Assembly (NCBI RefSeq): GCF_001618005.1
Contig: NZ_LQXA01000028.1
Coordinates: forward strand, 62,001-126,000
DNA: 64,000 nt
Direction of reading: 5' to 3'
Source of the DNA: Clavibacter tessellarius
GTDB taxonomy: Bacteria; Actinomycetota; Actinomycetes; Actinomycetales; Microbacteriaceae
The notes under the pieces are model-generated. The model was not told the DNA's origin. It ran no database searches and saw only the letters and a list, made by a program, of their open reading frames with translations. Positions 627 through 62,226 of this stretch are shown one piece after another. Each line of letters begins with the position of its first letter. Within the stretch, counting starts at the first letter, position 1. A program made the translations under genes and the position numbers.

Positions 627-643
627 ACGGGGTGCGAGGGCGG

Positions 644-1789
644 CTAGGCCTTCGCGGTCTTGCGTCGTGCGTGGATCCCGAGGCCCAGGGCTCCGAGGAC
701 CAGGGCGGCGAGGCCCCAGCCGATCGTGGGCGTGGGGTCGTATCCGGTGACCGGGAGGTTCCCGCCCGGCGTGGTGCCGCCTGGACCGAAGGGCGTCCCC
801 GGGGTGCGCGTGGCGGTCGGGGTGCCGGCCGTCGGCGTCGGGGTGCCCGTCGTGGCGCTGGGCGTGGGAGCGGTCGCGGTCGGGGTCGGCGCGGTCGCGG
901 TGGGCGTCGGCGCCGTGGGGGTGGGGGTCGGTGCCGTCGCGGTGGGCGTCGGCGTGGGAGCGTCGGTCGGCGACGTCGTGGGGGCCACGGTCGGCGACGT
1001 GGTCGGCGCGACGGTGGGCGTCGCCGTCGGGGTGACGACGGCGGTCACGAAGTTGCGGATGCGCGCGGAGCAGGTGACGGTCGCGCCGCCGCCGTTGCCG
1101 GATCCGATGCACTGGTCGACCTGCACCGCGAGCGCGGTGGAGGTCGTGGAGGTCGGCACGGTGCAGGTCACGCGACCGGCCCCGCCGCCGCCGTTGCCGG
1201 ACTGGTTGCACTGAGTGATGTCGGCGTTCGTCGTGCTGCCGACCGGGGAGCAGTTGACGGCGTTCGCGCCGCCGCCCTGTCCGGCGGCGATGCACTGGTT
1301 GACCGTCGCCGGCGTCGTGGTGCTCGTGCCGGTGATGTTGTTCGTGACGTCCACGGTGCATGCGACCTCGCCGCCGCCGCCGTTCCCGGATCCGTTGCAC
1401 TGGTCGACCGAGGTGACGATGGTCTGCGCGCTCTGCACGTCCGTGGTGCAGGTGCCGGCGGTGTTCGCGGCGCCGACGCAGACGACGGTCGTGACGGTCG
1501 ACGAGCCGACGCCGGTGGCCACGTCGAGGTTGTTGACGACGGTGACCGAGCAGGTGACCTGCTCGCCGCCCACGTTGGAGATCCCGTCGCACTGCTGGAT
1601 CGCGGTGGCGGTGGCGGCCGACGCGGAGTCGAGGGAGCTGCCGACGCCGACCCCGATGCCGACCACGGCCACGAGGGCGATGAGCGCGGCACCACCGGCG
1701 GCGACGAGACGCGCGCGGAGCGGGCGTCGAGGGCGGGTGATGCGGGTCGCGGGTGCGGCGGACCCGGGTGATGCGAGGTGATTCGGCAC
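644..1789 (-). CDS. LPXTG-anchored, glycine-rich repeat surface protein
   Basis: A 381-aa protein predicted to be exported and covalently anchored to the cell wall by sortase. After a basic n-region comes a hydrophobic stretch (about residues 28-48, AAGGALIALVAVVGIGVGVG). The ectodomain has about five copies of a roughly 45-aa repeat with the theme QCxGSGNGGGGxVxCTVxVxN, each with two cysteines. A long Pro/Thr-rich stalk follows. The C-terminus is a classical sorting signal: LPVTG at about 345-349, a membrane helix (GLAALVLGALGLGI) and the tail HARRKTAKA. The GTG start at 1789 is chosen because AAGGAG lies just upstream; longer in-frame extensions have no signal-peptide logic. Repeats and stalk are coded by GC-rich tandem DNA (about 820-1030), so copy number could vary between strains. 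Its ligand or role is unknown; adhesion is a guess. Confidence 0.8.
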   Translation of the reverse strand: MPNHLASPGSAAPATRITRPRRPLRARLVAAGGAALIALVAVVGIGVGVGSSLDSASAATATAIQQCDGISNVGGEQVTCSVTVVNNLDVATGVGSSTVTTVVCVGAANTAGTCTTDVQSAQTIVTSVDQCNGSGNGGGGEVACTVDVTNNITGTSTTTPATVNQCIAAGQGGGANAVNCSPVGSTTNADITQCNQSGNGGGGAGRVTCTVPTSTTSTALAVQVDQCIGSGNGGGATVTCSARIRNFVTAVVTPTATPTVAPTTSPTVAPTTSPTDAPTPTPTATAPTPTPTAPTPTATAPTPTATAPTPSATTGTPTPTAGTPTATRTPGTPFGPGGTTPGGNLPVTGYDPTPTIGWGLAALVLGALGLGIHARRKTAKA

Positions 1790-1943
1790 GGTGCTCCTTG
1801 TTCGGGAGCGAGCCTGCTCGCAGGGGCGCGACACGGCCGCGACGGCCGCGTGACCGGCGCGTGACACCCGGCGCGCCACGGCGCCGGATGCGCACGGCCG
1901 CGGTGCGCGGGCCATTCATTACGTGACTCCGGCGGGCATGCGA

Positions 1944-1975
1944 AGAGGGCCGATCCGCATGCGGATCGGCCCTCT
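1944..1975 (-). terminator. Perfect 16-bp inverted repeat after lsr2
   Basis: The 32-nt sequence is a perfect palindrome (two 16-nt arms with no spacer), 38 nt past the lsr2 stop. It probably terminates lsr2 transcription and insulates the downstream surface-protein gene. Confidence 0.75.
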
Positions 1976-2012
1976 CGGGTGCATTCCGCGCCAGGCGCGG
2001 GAAGCGGTGCGA

Positions 2013-2369
2013 CTACTTGTTGGAGCGGTACTCCTCGAGCAGGTCGGCCGAGATGCGGCCGCGCTCGGAGACCTTGTGGCCGTGCGCGCGCAGCCATTCG
2101 CGGGCGGCGCCGAGGTCCTCCTTGGGCGCGCTCGAGGACGAGCGACGCGGGCTGGAGGAGCGGCCGGAGGAGGCGCGGCCGACGCGGCGTGCGCGGTCGA
2201 CGTACGTGTCCAGCGCCTCACGGAGCTTCGCGGCGTTCGCGTCGCTCAGATCGATCTCGTAGTTCACGCCGTCGAGTGCGAAGGGGACGGTCTCGCCCTT
2301 TCCCTCATCGATGACGACGCCGTCGATGTCGTCGACGAGCGTGGTGACAACCTTGCGAGCCACGTCCAT
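2013..2369 (-). CDS. lsr2: Lsr2 nucleoid-associated protein
   Basis: A 118-aa H-NS-like protein of actinobacteria that bridges DNA and silences AT-rich, often horizontally acquired genes. The N-terminal dimerisation half (MDVARKVVTTLVDDIDG, then a YEIDLSDANAAKLREAL helix) is typical. A Ser/Arg-rich linker precedes the C-terminal DNA-binding domain. That domain has the AT-hook-like RGR motif in SERGRISADLLEEY, which inserts into the minor groove. Length is close to the mycobacterial protein. The start has a good Shine-Dalgarno sequence (AAGGAAAGG). A likely -10 element TATCGT lies at 2414-2419 on the minus strand, and the hairpin at 1944-1975 terminates it. Confidence 0.95.
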   Translation of the reverse strand: MDVARKVVTTLVDDIDGVVIDEGKGETVPFALDGVNYEIDLSDANAAKLREALDTYVDRARRVGRASSGRSSSPRRSSSSAPKEDLGAAREWLRAHGHKVSERGRISADLLEEYRSNK

Positions 2370-2732
2370 TCCTTTCCTTGCGGATGATGCATCCTGCGAT
2401 GCCTGCGTTCCACACGATACCGTTCCCGGCGTGATTTCCGAAACGAGACGCGCGATCCGGTCGTCGATTACGCGATATGCGCGTGCCCTGAGCGCGGCAT
2501 TCGCATTTCGGACCCGTCCGGGGATGCGCTCCGGCCCTTTCCGGGAGGGCGAACGGGCCGGCGCGGGCGTCCCCGCCGCCTATTTTCGGAAAGCGGGGAA
2601 TTTGATGCGTCCCGCAACGGATCCGCGGCGCCGGGGTGCGCAGGCGGGTGCGCAGGCGGGCGCCCGGACGCGCGAGGGCCCGCGGAGACGTGCTCCGCGG
2701 GCCCTCGATGCCGATCCTGCTGCGACGCCGGA
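2370..2732. other. 363-bp intergenic region, lsr2 promoter side
   Basis: No convincing gene. It holds the lsr2 promoter (TATCGT at 2414-2419, minus strand) and, near 2673-2707, a terminator. The stretch 2420-2620 is noticeably richer in A/T than the neighbouring genes, which might let Lsr2 bind its own promoter. I see no conserved RNA structure. Confidence 0.5.
2673..2707 (-). terminator. Hairpin downstream of the YrdC-fold gene
   Basis: Arms 2673-2686 and 2694-2707 pair perfectly over 14 bp with a 7-nt loop. The hairpin begins 26 nt past the stop codon of the minus-strand gene. Confidence 0.7.
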
Positions 2733-3515
2733 TCAGTAGTACTCGCCGTGGCGGTAGTCCCACGACGGGAACGACCGGGCGAGCGCCGACATGATGACGT
2801 CGACCGCGAGGCCGCGGCGGATGAGCGTGGGGCTCGGGGTGACGGAGCGCTCGCCGCGCTGCTCGGGGATGAGCGCGCCGGACGCGTCGACCATCGAGAC
2901 CATGACGCCCTGCTCGTGCCGGCTGGTCTCGTCGAGGCCCGGCTGGATGGAGGCGACGTACTCGTCGGCGGCGACGATGACGTCGGCCTGCTGCTCGATG
3001 CGCTCGCCGATGCCCTCGACGCGACCGCGATTGCCCTTGCCGGACGGGTTGGCCGAGCTGGCGAACGCGAGGCGCCCGCTCGCCCAGAGGTGCTCGGCGA
3101 GCTGCTCGGCGGGGCGGCCGAAGCGGATCACGAAGCAGCTCGTGCCGCGGCGGTCCATGGCGAGCTGCGCCGCGGTCTCGTCGGGGAGGAGGTGCTTCGC
3201 GTCCTCGCGCCAGGGGAGGATGCAGCCGAGCAGCACGTCCGCGTCCCAGTGCTCCTGGTAGAAGGCGAGGATCTCGTCGTTCAGCACGGCGAGCTGCTGC
3301 AGCTGCTCGATGCTCGTGCAGAGGACCACGCCCGGCTTGTCGCGGTTGCGCTGCTTGGCATCGAACTTGCGCTCGAGGCCCGCTCCGTCGGTGGTCATGA
3401 GGATGTAGCCGACCTTGGTGGCGGCGACGACGAGCCCGCCGGGGGCTTCGATCGCGGCGGCGGCGCGCTCGTCGAGGCTGCCGTCCCAGGGGATCGTGCG
3501 GGTGGTGTCGGTCAT
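2733..3515 (-). CDS. YrdC/Sua5/YciO-fold protein
   Basis: A 260-aa protein of the YrdC-like fold, whose characterised members (TsaC/Sua5) make threonylcarbamoyl-AMP from Thr, bicarbonate and ATP for tRNA t6A. Visible family features are VGYILMTTDGAGLERKFDAKQRNRDKPG near residues 37-65, with the basic K..R nucleotide-binding pattern, the FVIRFGRP strand, and the conserved SANPSGKGN loop. It is longer than TsaC and its N-terminus is not the canonical PTETVYGLG form. It may therefore be a paralogue of unknown substrate rather than the tRNA enzyme. The ATG at 3515 is the only start that keeps the domain compact. It follows the PucR gene on the same strand after 154 nt, so it is probably a separate unit. 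Confidence 0.7.
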   Translation of the reverse strand: MTDTTRTIPWDGSLDERAAAAIEAPGGLVVAATKVGYILMTTDGAGLERKFDAKQRNRDKPGVVLCTSIEQLQQLAVLNDEILAFYQEHWDADVLLGCILPWREDAKHLLPDETAAQLAMDRRGTSCFVIRFGRPAEQLAEHLWASGRLAFASSANPSGKGNRGRVEGIGERIEQQADVIVAADEYVASIQPGLDETSRHEQGVMVSMVDASGALIPEQRGERSVTPSPTLIRRGLAVDVIMSALARSFPSWDYRHGEYY

Positions 3516-3669
3516 GGGCGCGTGCCTCTCGTACGTGTCGGGAAGGGGAGCATGGGCGCACCTGCGTCGGGCCGGGATGCGCCGTGCCGCGCGTGCGGCG
3601 ATCAGGCGGTGTGGACGACGGTAGGCGCGGCGGCTGGGCGGGACGGGTGAGCGTCCACAGGGGACGACC

Positions 3670-5211
3670 CTATCCCTCCGCCGCCAGCACCGTGCGGCAG
3701 GCGAGGTGCAGCGCGAGGCGCGTCTCGGCGTCCGCGAGGTCGACCTGGAGGATGCGCTGCACGCGCTGGATCCGCTCGGCCACCGTGTTGCGGTGCACGG
3801 CCAGGATCGAGGCGGTCTCGGCGACCGACGACTCGGCGTCGAGGTAGGTCGCGAGGGTGGCGAGGAGGTCGCCCGCGGTCTGCCGGCGCAGCGGCGCGAG
3901 CAGCTCGAGCGCCGCCGGCTGGAAGGTGTCGGTCTGCGTCCAGGCGAGGAGCAGCTGCGCGAGGCCCAGGCGGTCGACGTGGAGGAAGCGGCCGGACTGC
4001 GGCCGGGAGGCGGCGAGACGCGCGGCGTCGGCGGCCTCCGTGAGCGAGCGCGCGATCCCGGCCGGCCCGTGGTGCACGCGTCCGACGCCGACCGCGCTCG
4101 ACAGGTCGTCGTCCCACCGCTGCTGCGCCCGCCGCACCGCACGCGCGGCCGCCTGGGCCGCGGGGACGTCGGGCTCGAGGTCGAACGTGATCCACGCGGC
4201 CCAGCCGTCGCCCTGCTCGACCACGCCCACGTCGAGGCCCTCCGCCGCGAGCGCCTCGATGAGCTCGTAGCGGCGGCCGACGGTGTCCACGTCCTGGCGC
4301 GCCACGACGCGCACCCCCATGTGCCAGCCCTCGACGCGCCAGCCGAGCTCGAGGGCGCGGCGGAGCAGCCCGGCGCCGGGGGCGTCCCCCGCCTCCAGGA
4401 GCTCGCCGAGCAGCGCGATGCGCCACCGGGCCTCGCGCTCGTCGACCACGCGCCGCAGCGACAGCCGGTGGCCGACCGCGAGCGCGGCGATGGGGAGGGC
4501 GGCGGCCACGGCGTCGACCTCGGCGGGCACAGACCCGGGGACCTCGACCACCAGCCAGCTCGGCGCGACCAGACCGGAGTCGACCCGCGCGCTCACCAGC
4601 GTGCCGGTCTCGCCGACGGGGCGCGCGTCGACGTGCCCGGGGAGCCCCTCGGCGATCGCGGCGCGCGCCTCGGAGGACGGGAGCGCGCCATCGGGCGCGA
4701 GGACGCGGCCGGAGGAGTCGACGAGGAGCGCCGGCCGGCCGAGGAGCGCGGTCGCCGCGACGAGGGTGTCGGCCGGATCCCGGTCGGCGTCCGCGAGCGC
4801 CGTGACGGCGTCGAGCGCGGCCCGTCCCGCGGCAGCGCGGGCATCGCCGAGACGGTCGTGGAGGGCGAGCGAGGTGGCCCACGCGTCGTCGCACGCGAGG
4901 ACGACGACGCCGAGCCGGGCTGCGAGGAGGGACGTGGCCGGATCCACCGCGACGGCCGCATCGAGCACGACCACGGTCACCCCCCGGTCGGCGAGGCGGC
5001 GCAGGCGGGCGTCGAACCGCCAGGTGGTGCGCTCGGTCCGGTCGAGGACCACGAGCACGTCCGTCCCCGGGGGCAGCGGCTCGTCCGACGGGGCGTCCAT
5101 CAGCACGCCCTGGACCCGCGTCACGGCCGGGTCCGCGGATCCGGCCAGGCGGCGCACGTCGGCGAGCGACGCGTGGTCGAGCAGCGCGGAGAGGACGACC
5201 GGGCGGATCAC
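3670..5211 (-). CDS. PucR-family transcriptional regulator
   Basis: A 513-aa regulator with the PucR/CdaR layout: an N-terminal sensory region (about 1-170), a divergent GGDEF-like middle domain, and a C-terminal helix-turn-helix. The HTH is ETASILAVHRNTVAERIQRVQRIL, followed by ETRLALHLACRTVL. PucR proteins control purine, allantoin and related nitrogen catabolism. The GTG start at 5211 overlaps the stop of the upstream DUF917 gene by four bases (GTGA), so the two are translationally coupled. Its place at the end of the permease-HyuA-DUF917 cluster suggests it senses the substrate or a product of that pathway. Confidence 0.85.
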   Translation of the reverse strand: MIRPVVLSALLDHASLADVRRLAGSADPAVTRVQGVLMDAPSDEPLPPGTDVLVVLDRTERTTWRFDARLRRLADRGVTVVVLDAAVAVDPATSLLAARLGVVVLACDDAWATSLALHDRLGDARAAAGRAALDAVTALADADRDPADTLVAATALLGRPALLVDSSGRVLAPDGALPSSEARAAIAEGLPGHVDARPVGETGTLVSARVDSGLVAPSWLVVEVPGSVPAEVDAVAAALPIAALAVGHRLSLRRVVDEREARWRIALLGELLEAGDAPGAGLLRRALELGWRVEGWHMGVRVVARQDVDTVGRRYELIEALAAEGLDVGVVEQGDGWAAWITFDLEPDVPAAQAAARAVRRAQQRWDDDLSSAVGVGRVHHGPAGIARSLTEAADAARLAASRPQSGRFLHVDRLGLAQLLLAWTQTDTFQPAALELLAPLRRQTAGDLLATLATYLDAESSVAETASILAVHRNTVAERIQRVQRILQVDLADAETRLALHLACRTVLAAEG

Positions 5212-37739: not shown

Positions 37740-37787
37740 CCACTACATATGGGGTTGGGCTCGGCCGGGGGCCCGCATATATAGTGA
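37740..37787 (+). promoter_or_regulatory. Tandem NrdR boxes and nrdA promoter
   Basis: Box 1 (37740-37755, CCACTACATATGGGGT) and box 2 (37772-37787, CCCGCATATATAGTGA) match the NrdR consensus ACACTATATATAGTGT. They are 32 bp apart, three helical turns. Box 2 contains the -10-like TATAGT (37780-37785), so NrdR-(d)ATP binding would block RNA polymerase. Confidence 0.8.
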
Positions 37788-37980: not shown

Positions 37981-40485
37981 GTGTCCATCACCGTAGTGAA
38001 GCGCGACGGCACGCGGGAGCCGTACGACGCGAACCGCATCAACCTGGCCATCGAGGACGCCACGCAGGGCCTCGATGAGAACATCGGCTGGGTCACGCAG
38101 ATCGCGTCCGAGCTGGAGATCACCCTCTTCGACGGGATCACCACGCAGCAGCTGGATGAGGCGGTCATCCAGGTCGCGCTCCAGAACGTGAAGGACGACC
38201 CGGCGTTCGACACCGTCGCGGCGCGCCTCCTCCTCAAGACCATCTACAAGCGCGTCCTCGGCGACTACTCGTCGCCCGAGGAGCTCAAGCGCCTCCACGC
38301 GGAGCACTTCGCCCGCAACATCCAGCGCGGCGTCGACGAGATGCTCCTCGACTCCCGCCTCGTGCAGCTGTTCGACCTGGAGCGCCTCGCCCAGGCCCTG
38401 GAGCCCGCGCACGACGAGCTGCTCAAGTACATCGGCGTCGTCACGCTGAACAACCGCTACGGCATCAAGGGCCGCAACGGCGACGCCCTCGAGGTGCCCC
38501 AGTACTTCTGGATGCGCATCGCGATGGGCCTCACGCTCAACGAGCAGGACCCGACCGCGACCGCCATCGCCTTCTACGAGAAGATGTCGAAGCTCGAGTA
38601 CCTCGCGGCCGGCTCCACCCTCGTCAACGCGGGCACCATCTACCCGCAGCTCGCGAACTGCTTCGTCATGGAGATGCAGGACGACATCGAGCACATCGCG
38701 AAGACCACGCGCGACGTCATGTGGCTCACCAAGGGCACGGGCGGCATCGGCCTCTCCGTCTCCAAGCTGCGCGCGCAGGGCTCGCCCATCCGCTCGAACA
38801 ACACCACCTCCACGGGCCCCATCCCGTTCATGCACACCATCGACTCGGTGCTCCGCGCCGTCAGCCGCGGCGGCAAGAAGTTCGGCGCCCTCTGCTTCTA
38901 CATGGAGAACTGGCACCTCGACTTCCCCGAGTTCCTCGACCTGCGCCAGAACTCGGGCGACCCGTACCGCCGCACCCGCACCGCCAACACGGCCGTGTGG
39001 ATCAGCGACGAGTTCATGAAGCGCGTCCAGAACGACGACGACTGGTACCTCTTCGACCCGCTGGAGGTCTCCGACCTCAACGAGCTGTACGGCAAGGCGT
39101 TCTCGGAGCGCTACGCGTTCTACGTCGGCGAGGCCGAGGCCGGGCGCATCCGGATGTTCAAGCGCATCAAGGCGCGCGAGCAGTTCAAGTCGATCCTCAT
39201 CTCGCTCCAGACCACCAGCCACCCGTGGCTGACCTGGAAGGACACGATCAACAACCGCGCCCTGAACAACAACACGGGCACGATCCACCTCTCGAACCTC
39301 TGCACCGAGATCACGCTGCCGCAGGACGAGGACAACGTCTCCGTCTGCAACCTGGCGTCCATCAACCTGTCGCAGCACTTCGCCGACGGCAAGATCGACT
39401 TCGCGAAGATCGAGCAGAGCGCGCGCCTCGCGGTGCGCCAGCTCGACAACCTCATCGACATCACGCGCTCCAGCGTGAAGGAGGCGGACTTCTCCAACCA
39501 GCAGAACCGCGCGGTGGGCCTCGGCGTCATGGGCTTCACCGACGTCGTGGAGAAGCTCGGCTTCTCGTACGAGTCGGAGGAGTCGTACGACCTCATCGAC
39601 GAGATCATGGAGCACGTCTCCTACGCGGCCATCGACGAGTCGGCCGATCTCGCCAAGGAGCGCGGCGCGTACCCGAACTTCGAGGGCTCGCGTTGGTCGG
39701 AGGGCCTCGTGCCGCTCGACTCCATCGCGCTCATGGAGGCCGACCGCGGCGTGCCCGTCAAGGTCAACCGCACCACGCGCCTCGACTGGGACGCGCTCCG
39801 CGCCAAGGTCAAGGGCGGCATGCGCAACGCGACGCTCATGGCGATCGCGCCCACCGCGTCCATCGGCCTCGTCGCCGGCACCACGCCCGGCCTCGACCCG
39901 CAGTTCTCGCAGATCTTCAGCCGCTCCACCTCCTCGGGCAAGTTCCTCGAGGTCAACCGGAACCTGGTGAAGGACCTGCAGGAGCTCGGCCTCTGGGAGA
40001 CCGTGCGCGAGAGCATCCTGCGCAGCCAGGGCGACATCCAGAACATCGCCGCCATCCCGGACTCGGTCAAGGCCACGTACCGCACGAGCTTCCAGCTCTC
40101 GCCGTACGCGTTCCTCGAGGTCGCGGCGCGCGCGCAGAAGTGGATCGACCAGGCCATCAGCCGCAACATGTACCTGGAGACGCGCGACCTCGGCGACATG
40201 ATGGACATCTACTTCGCCGGCTGGGAGCGCGGGGTCAAGACCACGTACTACCTGCACATGAAGCCGCGTCACACGGCCGAGCAGTCGACCGTGAAGGTCG
40301 ACAAGTCGCAGGACGCCGACGGCACCAAGCGCAAGGGCTTCGGCGGATTCGGCGGCGGCGCTCCCGCGGCCGTGCCCGCGTCTGCCGCTCCCGCATCCAC
40401 CGCGACCGCGGACGCCCCGGCGCCGCAGTCCGCTCCGGCGCCCCGCAAGGGCTTCGGCTTCGGCGGAGTGGGAGGTGCACGCTGA
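37981..40485 (+). CDS. nrdA: Ribonucleoside-diphosphate reductase alpha subunit, lacking the C-terminal Cys pair
   Basis: 834 aa. It reduces ribonucleotides to deoxyribonucleotides. An ATP-cone (about 1-95, SITVVKRDGTREPYDANRINLAIEDA) is the allosteric activity site. The active-site Cys residues are in LANCFVMEM, in SNLCTEI (with the catalytic Asn and Glu) and in NVSVCNLASINLS; the radical-transfer Tyr pair is near the end of the barrel (TTYYLHM). The C-terminus after residue 780 is a Pro/Ala/Ser linker with two KGFG motifs. It stops at GGVGGAR without the swinging CxxC or CxxxxC that normally takes electrons from thioredoxin or glutaredoxin. The missing motif is encoded by the next, overlapping mini-ORF. 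Expression is controlled by the NrdR and DnaA sites upstream. Confidence 0.93.
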   Translation: MSITVVKRDGTREPYDANRINLAIEDATQGLDENIGWVTQIASELEITLFDGITTQQLDEAVIQVALQNVKDDPAFDTVAARLLLKTIYKRVLGDYSSPEELKRLHAEHFARNIQRGVDEMLLDSRLVQLFDLERLAQALEPAHDELLKYIGVVTLNNRYGIKGRNGDALEVPQYFWMRIAMGLTLNEQDPTATAIAFYEKMSKLEYLAAGSTLVNAGTIYPQLANCFVMEMQDDIEHIAKTTRDVMWLTKGTGGIGLSVSKLRAQGSPIRSNNTTSTGPIPFMHTIDSVLRAVSRGGKKFGALCFYMENWHLDFPEFLDLRQNSGDPYRRTRTANTAVWISDEFMKRVQNDDDWYLFDPLEVSDLNELYGKAFSERYAFYVGEAEAGRIRMFKRIKAREQFKSILISLQTTSHPWLTWKDTINNRALNNNTGTIHLSNLCTEITLPQDEDNVSVCNLASINLSQHFADGKIDFAKIEQSARLAVRQLDNLIDITRSSVKEADFSNQQNRAVGLGVMGFTDVVEKLGFSYESEESYDLIDEIMEHVSYAAIDESADLAKERGAYPNFEGSRWSEGLVPLDSIALMEADRGVPVKVNRTTRLDWDALRAKVKGGMRNATLMAIAPTASIGLVAGTTPGLDPQFSQIFSRSTSSGKFLEVNRNLVKDLQELGLWETVRESILRSQGDIQNIAAIPDSVKATYRTSFQLSPYAFLEVAARAQKWIDQAISRNMYLETRDLGDMMDIYFAGWERGVKTTYYLHMKPRHTAEQSTVKVDKSQDADGTKRKGFGGFGGGAPAAVPASAAPASTATADAPAPQSAPAPRKGFGFGGVGGAR

Positions 40486-40562
40486 TGAACGACGACACGT
40501 TCGGCGACTACGTCGTCCCCATGGACCCCATGGACGAGCTCCAGTGCGACTCCTGCCAGTAG
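40485..40562 (+). CDS. 25-aa peptide with the RNR-type C-terminal CxxC tail
   Basis: The ATG at 40485 overlaps the nrdA stop by one base (TGATG). It encodes MNDDTFGDYVVPMDP followed by MDELQCDSCQ and a TAG stop. A strong Shine-Dalgarno sequence GGAGGTG lies at 40470-40476, at ideal distance. The ending with two cysteines looks like the redox tail of an RNR alpha subunit. Either the tail works in trans as a separate peptide, or it is joined to NrdA by frameshifting, or the split is a recent frameshift mutation or sequence error. The reading frame relative to nrdA is -1, and there is no obvious slippery heptamer. Confidence 0.65.
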   Translation: MNDDTFGDYVVPMDPMDELQCDSCQ

Positions 40563-40653: not shown

Positions 40654-41649
40654 ATGTCGAAGATCCTCGGCACGGGAATCCAGGAGGGCCTCCTCCTCAA
40701 GCCCGTCAACTACCAGTGGGCCATGGACCTGTACGACCAGGCCGTCGCCAACACGTGGTTCCCCAACGAGATCCAGCTCGGCGAGGACATCGCGGACTTC
40801 AAGAAGATGACGGACGAGGAGCGCCACGCGATCACGTTCCTCATGAGCTACTTCAACCCGAACGAGCTCCTCGTGAACAAGGCGCTCGCGTTCGGCGTCT
40901 ACCCCTACATCAACGCGCCGGAGTGCCACCTCTACCTGGCGAAGCAGATGTGGGAGGAGGCGAACCACTGCATGTCGTTCGAGTACGTCCTGGAGACGTT
41001 CCCGATCGACCGCGAGGCCGCGTACAACTCCCACGTCGACATCCCGTCGATGGCGCGCAAGGAGGAGTTCGAGGTCAAGTTCATCAAGCGCATGACCGAG
41101 CAGACCCTCGACATCACCACCACCGAGGGCAAGAAGGACTTCGTCCGGAACCTCGTCGCGTACAACGTGATCCTCGAGGGCATCTGGTTCTACTCGGGCT
41201 TCATGGTGTCGCTGTCGTTCCGCCAGCGGAACCTGCTGCGCAACTTCGGTTCGCTCATGGACTGGATCGTGCGCGACGAGTCGCTGCACCTGAAGTTCGG
41301 CATCAACCTCATCCTCACGGTGCTCGAGGAGAACCCCGACCTGCAGACGGAGGAGTTCGCCGCCGAGATCAAGCAGATGATCCTCGACGCCGTCGAGATG
41401 GAGGAGCAGTACAACCGCGACCTCCTGCCGAACGGCATCCTCGGCCTCAACGCGAACTACATCAACCAGTACGTGAAGTACCTGGCCGACCGCCGCCTGG
41501 AGGAGCTCGGCTTCGAGGCCGAGTACAAGGTCTCCAACCCGGCGAAGTGGATGGCCACGGCGAACGACACGCTGCAGCTCGTCAACTTCTTCGAGTCGAC
41601 CAACACGTCGTACGAGTCGAACGCGTCCGCCACGGTCGGCGCCAAGTAG
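40654..41649 (+). CDS. nrdB: Ribonucleotide reductase beta subunit, class Ic-like
   Basis: 331 aa, ferritin-like metallo-subunit that makes the radical or oxidant for NrdA. Metal ligands are readable: Glu71 (NPNELLVNKAL), Glu102 and His105 (WEEANHCMSF), Glu175 (ILEGIWFY), and Glu209/His212 (DESLHLKF). The residue at the classical tyrosyl-radical position is Phe109, and the first ligand is Glu rather than Asp. This is the pattern of class Ic subunits such as that of Chlamydia trachomatis, which use a Mn(IV)/Fe(III) cofactor instead of a Tyr radical. The C-terminus (NTSYESNASATVGAK) should dock on NrdA. It begins 91 nt after the mini-ORF with an AAGAAG-type ribosome site. Confidence 0.93.
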   Translation: MSKILGTGIQEGLLLKPVNYQWAMDLYDQAVANTWFPNEIQLGEDIADFKKMTDEERHAITFLMSYFNPNELLVNKALAFGVYPYINAPECHLYLAKQMWEEANHCMSFEYVLETFPIDREAAYNSHVDIPSMARKEEFEVKFIKRMTEQTLDITTTEGKKDFVRNLVAYNVILEGIWFYSGFMVSLSFRQRNLLRNFGSLMDWIVRDESLHLKFGINLILTVLEENPDLQTEEFAAEIKQMILDAVEMEEQYNRDLLPNGILGLNANYINQYVKYLADRRLEELGFEAEYKVSNPAKWMATANDTLQLVNFFESTNTSYESNASATVGAK

Positions 41650-60324: not shown

Positions 60325-62226
60325 ATGCCCAACCGCCTCGCCGACGCCGTCAGCCCCTACCTCCAGAGCCACGCGGACAACCCGGTCGACTGGCGGCCGT
60401 GGGGCGAGGAGGCGTTCGCGGAGGCCCGCCGCCGCGACGTGCCGGTGCTCGTCTCGGTCGGCTACTCCACCTGCCACTGGTGCCACGTCATGGCGCGCGA
60501 GACCTTCCAGGATCCGGCGCTCGCGTCGCGGCTGAACGACGGGTTCGTCGCGATCAAGGTCGACCGCGAGGAGCACCCCGAGGTCGACGCGGCCCTGATC
60601 ACCGCGGCCGGCGCCTTCACGGACCAGCTCGGCTGGCCGCTCAACGTGTTCACGACGCCCGAGGGCCGCACCTTCCACGCGGGCACGTACTCGCCGCCCG
60701 AGCCGCGCGCCGGGCACCCGTCGTTCCGGCAGGTGCTCGACGCCGTCGCCGACGCGTGGACCACGCGGCGCGACCAGGTCGAGCAGGGCGCGGGGCAGCT
60801 GAGCTCGGCCATCCGGGAGGCCTCGGCGCGCGGATCCGTCGCCTCGCCGCTGCCCGACGACGCCGCCCTCGACCGGGTCGCCGCCGAGCTCGCCGGCTTC
60901 GAAGACGGGGAGCACGGCGGGTTCGGATCCGCGCCCAAGTTCCCCGTGGCGCCCGTCGTGCTGCTGCTCGACACGCTCGCCGAGTCCGGCGTGCTCGCCG
61001 CACCGCGCGCGGAGGCGACCCGCGCGCTCGTGCGCCGCACCCTCGACGCGATGGCCGGATCCGACCTGCGCGACCCGGTCGAGGGCGGCTTCTTCCGCTA
61101 CTCCACGCGCCGCGACTGGTCCGAGCCGCACTACGAGCGGATGCTCTACGACAACGCGCTGCTCCTCGACGCGTACGCGCGGGCGGGCGACGAGGACGTC
61201 GCCGCGGGCATCGTCGCCTTCCTCACGGGGACGCTGCGGCGGGCGTCGGGCGGGTTCGCGTCCGCGCAGGACTCGGAGAGCACCGTCGGCGGGCGCCGCG
61301 TCGAGGGCGGGTACTACGCGCTGGACGCCGCGGGCCGCGCGGCCGAGGAGCCGCCCGCGGTCGACGGGAAGGTGCTCACGGGATGGAACGGGCTCGCGAT
61401 CGGCGCGCTCGCCCGGGCGGGGCGCGCGTTCGACCGGCCCGCGTGGATCGACGCCGCGTGCGCCGCCGCCGACATGCTGCTCGCGGAGCACGTGCGCATG
61501 GACGGGTCGCTCGTCCGCGCCTCCATCGAAGGACGCGTCTCGCCCGCGGTCGCGACGCTGGAGGACCACGGGATGCTCGCCGACGGGCTGCTCGCGCTCG
61601 CGCTCGCCACGGGCGAGGTCGCGTACGCGGTGCGGGCGCGGGCGCTCGTCGACGCGCTGATCGCGGCCGCCGAGGCCGATCCGCGACCGGGCGCCGCGGG
61701 CTTCCGGGTGCCGACGGGCGTGGATCCGGTGCTCGCCGGCTTCGGCCTCGACCTCGCCGCCGACCCGTCCGAGGGCGCGTACCCGTCGGGCCTCACGGCG
61801 GCGTCCTCGGCCGCGCGCGTGCTCGGGCAGCTGACGGCGGATCCGCGCTACGACCGGGCCGCGCGCGCCGCGCTCGCGACGGTGGCGGCTGCCGGTGCCA
61901 CCCGGCCGATCGCCTTCGGCGGCGCGCTCGAGCAGGCGGCGGCGATCGACGCGGCGGCGCGGCAGCTCGTGGTGGTCGTGCCGGACGCGGATCCCGGCGC
62001 CACCGACCCGCTCGCCCTGGTCGCGCGGGGCCGCGTCCGCCCGCCCGACGTGGCGATCGTGGTCGCGGAGTCGGCCGCGCGCGCCTGGGCCGACGCGGGC
62101 TTCGAGCTGCTCGCCGACCGCGACGCGGGATCCACCGGGACGGCCTACGTGTGCCGCGCGTTCTCGTGCCGCCTCCCCGTGACGACGGCGGACGCGCTCC
62201 GCGAGCAGCTGGTCGCGCTCCCCTGA
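60325..62226 (+). CDS. DUF255 thioredoxin-fold protein (YyaL/SSP411 type)
   Basis: 633 aa. An N-terminal thioredoxin-like domain has [21 protein letters not shown] and the CxxC in STCHWCHVM near residue 54. An (alpha/alpha)6 barrel follows, related to N-acylglucosamine epimerases/glycosyl hydrolases ([57 protein letters not shown]). The family is universal but its reaction is not established. ATG 60325 is the leaderless start; a GTG three codons upstream would overlap the promoter hexamer. The C-terminal segment [20 protein letters not shown] recurs as a broken fragment at the right edge of the window. Confidence 0.9.

Follow-up and report, generated by a model that had tools for sequence, protein, structure and literature searches.

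The nrdAB locus and its separate tail gene

We analysed a ribonucleotide reductase (RNR) locus of Clavibacter tessellarius (family Microbacteriaceae; NCBI RefSeq assembly GCF_001618005.1, contig NZ_LQXA01000028.1) on a stretch of 64,000 nucleotides, positions 62,001 to 126,000 of the forward strand, which is called the window throughout. Re-reduction of class I reductases depends on a pair of C-terminal cysteines, which normally belongs to the chain. At this locus the large-subunit gene nrdA ends without such a pair, and a short open reading frame (ORF) resembling the missing redox tail, here called the tail gene, lies between nrdA and the small-subunit gene nrdB (Table 1).

Table 1 Features of the nrdAB locus, in window positions
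Feature	Position	Strand	Remarks
NrdR-box-like pair before nrdA	37743-37784	+	cores 37743-37752 CTACATATGG and 37775-37784 GCATATATAG, spacer 22
nrdA, class I ribonucleotide reductase large subunit	37981-40485	+	without C-terminal cysteine pair
Shine-Dalgarno site GGAGGTG of the tail ORF	40471-40477	+	within the final nrdA codons, 7 nt before the ATG
Tail peptide gene, 25 aa, MNDDTFGDYVVPMDPMDELQCDSCQ	40485-40562	+	start overlaps the nrdA stop
nrdB, small subunit	40654-41649	+	Pfam PF00268, NCBIfam NF007186

The nrdA product matched the Pfam models PF02867, PF00317 and PF03477 (barrel, all-alpha and ATP-cone domains), all over their cut-offs, and the NCBIfam model NF005101 with 1738 bits, while the class II model TIGR02504 scored 379 bits, under its cut-off of 399.95. 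The NF005101 match and the adjoining nrdB place the large subunit in class I. It is the sole large subunit found in this genome. Residues C226, N438, C440, E442, C455, Y755 and Y756 (numbered from residue 2) were invariant across nine sequences, and the protein was also aligned to structure 5im3; from E. coli NrdA, we take these residues to be the active-site cysteines, Asn and Glu and the radical-transfer tyrosine pair.

The C-terminal stretch of NrdA reads ...APAPRKGFGFGGVGGAR and ends ...PRKGFGFGGVGGAR, closed by an RKGFGFGG motif. No CxxC occurs in the nrdA frame near the end of the gene, as an initial annotation of this DNA had claimed. That annotation had also described an overlapping 25-codon ORF with a GGAGGTG Shine-Dalgarno site, and both are present. 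It had placed the start of this ORF one base after nrdA, which needs correcting: the nrdA stop TGA (40483-40485) and the tail start ATG (40485-40487) form a TGATG junction in which the ATG uses the A of the TGA. The tail ORF stops with a TAG at 40560-40562. Its product, with two cysteines, had no Pfam or NCBIfam match.

Conservation of the split

The initial annotation had reasoned that a conserved separation in relatives would support a genuine split, and this is what we found. An initial search of 60 genomes, including that of the window, gave a match in 59. All 18 Clavibacter genomes examined have the same TGATG arrangement and the identical 25 residues. Across the family, 170 of 398 Microbacteriaceae genomes encode an NrdA with an E-value of 1e-150 or better; the loci that we classified come from about 151 of them by hand count, about 19 being outside the set. 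The C-terminal anchor was present in 162 of the 166 loci first collected. Among these 162 there were 151 separate tails, 3 fused tails, every one outside Microbacteriaceae, 7 loci without a downstream tail and 1 at a contig end. The four unanchored loci were one fused locus (L026) and three weaker matches to other reductases (L028-L030). Altogether, the split is clear at 150 of 158 classified family loci, in 36 of the 39 genera sampled, and none of the 158 carries a fused tail. Several split loci sit in single-contig genomes, with differing offsets and frames.

Few family loci depart from this pattern. No tail was found at L145 and L158, two loci that run off the contig, and at five others (L025, L083, L094, L111 and L165) there is no tail between nrdA and nrdB. 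One locus is unclear (L022, in a genome that is 86% complete): its nrdA frame continues past the tail ORF with no stop and no called start, which is probably an indel. The same genome carries two more motif matches.

The signals around the linked tails vary. Relative to nrdA, the tail of the 150 clear splits lies in frame +2 at 130 loci, in frame 0 at 13 and in frame +1 at 7 (8 if the unclear locus is included). The excess of frame +2 is explained by the ATGA and TGATG overlaps, which give that frame. The nrdA stop is TGA at 100 loci, TAA at 36 and TAG at 14, and the 13 in-frame tails stand behind TAG (7), TAA (4) or TGA (2). Start calling that favoured Shine-Dalgarno sites gave ATG at 121 and GTG at 29 tails, and peptides of 20 to 57 residues with a median of 26. 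When the first ATG or GTG was taken instead, without using the Shine-Dalgarno site, a Shine-Dalgarno match of at least 4 nt preceded 132 of the 150 starts, compared with 855 of 3999 ATG or GTG triplets inside nrdA (21%). Because the loci use three frames, three stops and starts of their own with Shine-Dalgarno sites, a single recoding event cannot explain them.

The peptides share the consensus end (V)PxDPMDxLQC(D/E)SCQ. Among 123 distinct core DNAs from the family loci, the residues P, D, P, M, C, C and Q are invariant and their codons vary, except for that of M. SCQ retains its serine in 122 of the 123, encoded by AGC or AGT in some and by TCC or TCG in others. This pattern shows codon-level purifying selection on the tail core. 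The same arrangement in 18 Clavibacter genomes and the invariance of core residues despite codon change exclude a chance ORF.

Outside Microbacteriaceae, NrdA carries the tail itself. In a sample of the order, 33 of 396 genomes, one being the window's own, had an LQCxxCQ-stop match; in 29 of 30 loci from the other 32 genomes the tail was fused in frame to NrdA, as in ACPVDPMEALQCESCQ, and another fused homologous tail of other families ends ...CPVDPMEALQCESCQ. The initial annotation had held that relatives with an uninterrupted NrdA would refute the split. Such relatives do exist, and they lie outside the family only. These chains share with the Clavibacter enzyme the barrel, the ATP-cone, the active-site residues, the GFG linker motif and the tail core, but their tail lies within the chain whereas that of Clavibacter is a separate gene. 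At one locus of a family with fused tails (L294) the tail stands out of the nrdA frame, reflecting either an error or a beginning split.

The fused NrdA outside the family fits an ancestral fused state. In a quickly built tree from 94 subsampled NrdA rows (77 split and 17 fused; L027 and the viral NrdA described below were omitted for their long branches), a single branch divided split from fused with a Shimodaira-Hasegawa-like approximate likelihood ratio of 96, corresponding to one change, and loss of the linked copy required 4 changes. With L027 and the viral NrdA added, the split/fused label required 2 changes. Each of the 157 split or tail-less NrdA C-termini checked in the family has a (R/K)GF(G/A/S) motif among its last 30 residues. 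The GFG motif is present in fused chains too, and the (R/K)GFGFGG end of NrdA is a candidate docking site.

Free-standing and mobile copies of the tail gene

The five genomes whose nrdA has no linked tail each carry a tail gene elsewhere. A degenerate pattern, DPM(D/E)...C(D/E)xxCQ-stop, matched in all 10 genomes chosen, those five included, and the five hold the tail gene only as a free-standing ORF of 27-28 codons, for example MDYESNDTVGGYAVPVDPMDLLQCDSCQ. Three of them (G161, G342 and G032) have no other large subunit, and two (G176 and G345) have a second. G161 has an additional free-standing tail ORF on a 30-kb contig. Over 49 genomes tested, 45 encode one large subunit and 4 encode two. 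The window's genome itself has a second, free-standing tail gene on another contig (L177 on C30), encoding MDYDNNDTVGGYAIPVDPMELLQCDSCQ; from reading the sequence, its neighbours are candidate dehydratase (MaoC-type) genes.

With one mismatch allowed, the motif occurs in 178 of the 398 family genomes. Motif and nrdA occur together in 170, nrdA alone in 0, the motif alone in 8 and neither in 220, relatedness not being corrected; that is, the motif is found in 170 of 170 nrdA-bearing genomes versus 8 of 228 others. At least two motif matches are present in 152 of the 170 nrdA genomes and one in 18 (table counted by hand). Genera g73 and g89 have some members with both motif and nrdA and others with neither. 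A class-wide scan of 394 genomes gave a match in the window's genome only, and carries little weight since the other 20 family genomes in it are not among the nrdA list. Two genomes (G091 and G164) have five motif matches apiece (L238-L241 and L258-L261 among them); some of these lie on small contigs, and several have no NrdR-like boxes.

We searched upstream regions with the expression for NrdR box pairs (spacer 20-23) given in the accessible text of PMC12051234, both strictly and with one mismatch. The strict expression misses the window's own pair. Upstream of free-standing tail genes it matched 32 of 83 distinct regions, where shuffles predict 0.3%, and downstream of them 0 of 84; upstream of nrdA it matched 14 of 45 regions, two of the 45 being fused relatives. 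With one mismatch, a pair was found at 43 of 43 nrdA loci (18 of these belong to a single genus; shuffles give 1.6) and before 62 of 65 free-standing tail genes of a conserved class (3.2 expected; 0 of 65 downstream), a class defined by a sequence expression set after the peptides had been seen. The looser expression is unspecific on its own, with 19 matches on the + strand of the window and 11 on the - strand. The site before nrdA in the window rests on conservation, because 18 other + strand places match as well. Genes under NrdR control have a pair of boxes 14-17 bp apart, and with one mismatch allowed these loci have such pairs; NrdR is encoded in the window's genome. Both nrdA and the conserved free-standing tail gene are preceded by NrdR-like boxes, at which NrdR may bind. 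As far as the accessible text describes the NrdR regulon, the likeness lies in paired boxes with the published spacer size, here before nrdA and the free-standing tail gene.

Tail genes are also found on mobile elements. A tblastn search with the peptide, whose E-values are modest given the short query, returned 19 plasmid records, 15 of them from Clavibacter, and phages labelled as Pontimonas phage phiPsal1, Clavibacter phage CMP1 and Pseudanabaena phage Pan2. Clavibacter phage CN1A gave a weaker match, the ORF being known by its place only. In three isolated phages (L379, L381 and L505) the unannotated match is located within the holin/endolysin region or close to it, in CN1A one gene beyond. 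A 33-residue plasmid copy (L382, 4977-5078) is annotated 'ribonucleotide-diphosphate reductase subunit beta' (WP_223361114.1); the other records listed have no feature, a 'hypothetical protein' or, once, a helix-turn-helix name. In the phage labelled as infecting the cyanobacterium Pseudanabaena, the 26-residue tail-like ORF (L380, 5998-6078), annotated as hypothetical, has an extra cysteine known from fused tails, and the labelled host, or else the range of hosts in which the system occurs, may deserve a second look. A PHROGs search gave phrog_9555 as its best match at E 0.15, and was not used.

A scan of IMG/VR found at least 120 stretches with the exact pattern, 80 of which we analysed. None of the 80 is fused to nrdA or lies directly behind it, the called length is 21-32 residues in 74 (start calling was rough), and a P, not demanded by the pattern, precedes xDPM in 79. 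We tested 36 of the longer viral contigs together with 3 phages; of these 39 viral records, one carries a reductase large-subunit gene. Many of the records are fragments, so that a missing reductase gene is no proof of absence. On the one contig with the gene (L504, IMGVR_UViG_3300010885_033832, 633-4170), a 28-residue tail ORF is followed after an 88-nt gap by a tail-less nrdA and an nrdB-like frame. Its NrdA is 72% identical to that of the window and broken by an intein-like insert, which by eye falls right at the NLCTE motif, at its active-site cysteine.

Proposed function of the detached tail

We consider it very probable that the class I reductase of these bacteria works as three chains: a tail-less NrdA, NrdB and a free tail peptide acting in trans. 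The five nrdA loci without a linked tail, each in a genome with a free-standing tail gene, argue for this. So do the conserved split in three frames and behind three stops, the purifying selection on the core, the Shine-Dalgarno enrichment, the co-occurrence of motif and nrdA, the NrdR-like pairs, the homologous fused tails of other families, the viral contig with tail gene, nrdA and nrdB, and the NrdJb precedent described below. In the mechanism we propose, the reduced CxxC of the free peptide would enter the active site of NrdA, reduce the disulfide formed there at each turnover and then be re-reduced by thioredoxin or glutaredoxin. The peptide may dock through its conserved VPxDPM stretch, with the (R/K)GFGFGG terminus of NrdA perhaps taking part. 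Translation of the linked copy would start by termination-reinitiation where ATGA or TGATG overlaps occur, or at a Shine-Dalgarno site of its own; a separate NrdR-controlled promoter would drive the free-standing copy. Phage and plasmid copies perhaps back the host reductase while these elements replicate.

Several observations weigh against a tail acting in trans. Seven genomes with the motif and no detected nrdA belong to genera having nrdA, and the eighth (G179), a one-mismatch match, to a genus without it. Among free-standing copies outside the conserved class, the box pair is absent in 16 of 18 and present in 2 (0.7 expected from shuffles). An AlphaFold model of a fused relative was too poor for docking, with a mean predicted local distance difference test score of 54. 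A 25-residue peptide may also not be stable or abundant enough.

The alternatives explain the distribution of tails less well. The initial annotation saw mutation or sequencing error as the main alternative. A single indel in the GC-rich linker could mimic a split in one genome, and the incomplete genome of L022 and the fused family of L294 show such a picture; but a split in all 18 Clavibacter genomes and most family genera, in part on single contigs and with differing offsets and frames, makes it hardly credible that an error or recent frameshift hides one fused NrdA. The initial annotation had left open whether the tail acts in trans or is attached by recoding, and only the former fared well. 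Programmed recoding, a -1 frameshift or stop readthrough adding the tail to a fraction of NrdA chains, could draw on the single relative frame of 130 splits, but that frame follows from the overlaps, and the tails in frame 0 behind all three stops, the 7 in the third frame, the rule of start codons with Shine-Dalgarno sites and the five loci without any downstream tail render it very improbable. It was rejected from frames 0, 1 and 2 and the stops TGA, TAA and TAG, with no slip-site search made.

Two other explanations concern what the peptide does. The tail-less NrdA might be reduced directly by another reductant, the peptide ORFs being relics; the accessible text of PMC4520616 reports that dithiothreitol reduces such active sites in vitro, less efficiently. 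Because the tail core is under strong purifying selection, free-standing copies have NrdR-like boxes and every one of the 170 nrdA genomes has the motif, we see very little chance of this. Alternatively, the peptide might derive from the tail and have become a dedicated small redox carrier or a regulator of NrdAB, such as a thiol sensor or inhibitor, without further access to the active site. A regulator would likewise be consistent with NrdR-like control, with mobile copies and with several copies in a genome, but NrdA retains its active-site cysteines and requires a reductant, the peptide core resembles that of fused tails and no family locus supplies a fused one; we regard it as unlikely.

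The closest precedent for a detached tail, by analogy, is the split class II reductase NrdJa/NrdJb of Pseudomonas aeruginosa, in which, according to the accessible text, disulfide exchange runs through a separate small chain that is required in vivo (PMC4520616). As in the Clavibacter system, the catalytic chain and the redox-cysteine chain come from separate genes. Unlike it, NrdJa/NrdJb is a class II, cobalamin enzyme whose detached piece is folded and not a tail peptide, NrdJb corresponding to a cysteine-rich domain that contains a zinc finger (PMC5704485, PMC9669993); mobile tail-only copies are not among the features described in the accessible parts of these papers. Phage RNR genes are also encoded in pieces, split by introns and inteins, as in nrdA-a/nrdA-b of Aeh1 (PMC3653736). 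As that source describes them in its accessible parts, these are mostly cases of introns, inteins and homing endonucleases, whereas the window ORFs overlap by one base and leave no room for such elements. We recognised no description of a class I reductase whose tail is a detached peptide, and found no peptide gene of about 27 residues as an NrdR regulon member, in the open-licence literature; subscription journals lay largely outside the search.

The system is wider than the initial annotation supposed, with a second, free-standing gene carrying NrdR-like boxes and with phage and plasmid copies. On balance, we lean towards the view that the tail is a free, exchangeable and mobile peptide cofactor in Microbacteriaceae, that several peptide genes may serve one tail-less enzyme, and that phages and plasmids may raise the output of the host's DNA-precursor enzyme with a bare gene of about 25 codons. 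As a separate peptide, the tail could be titrated, labelled or swapped with the enzyme unaltered. Databases already contain tail ORFs, in at least one case misleadingly named, and a peptide gene of about 27 codons is seen here with NrdR-like boxes. The peptide would add a widespread small protein to an essential enzyme. The mobile copies suggest that phages supply reductase function by a bare peptide; if this is true, the phage and plasmid gene would be a remarkably small auxiliary metabolic gene.
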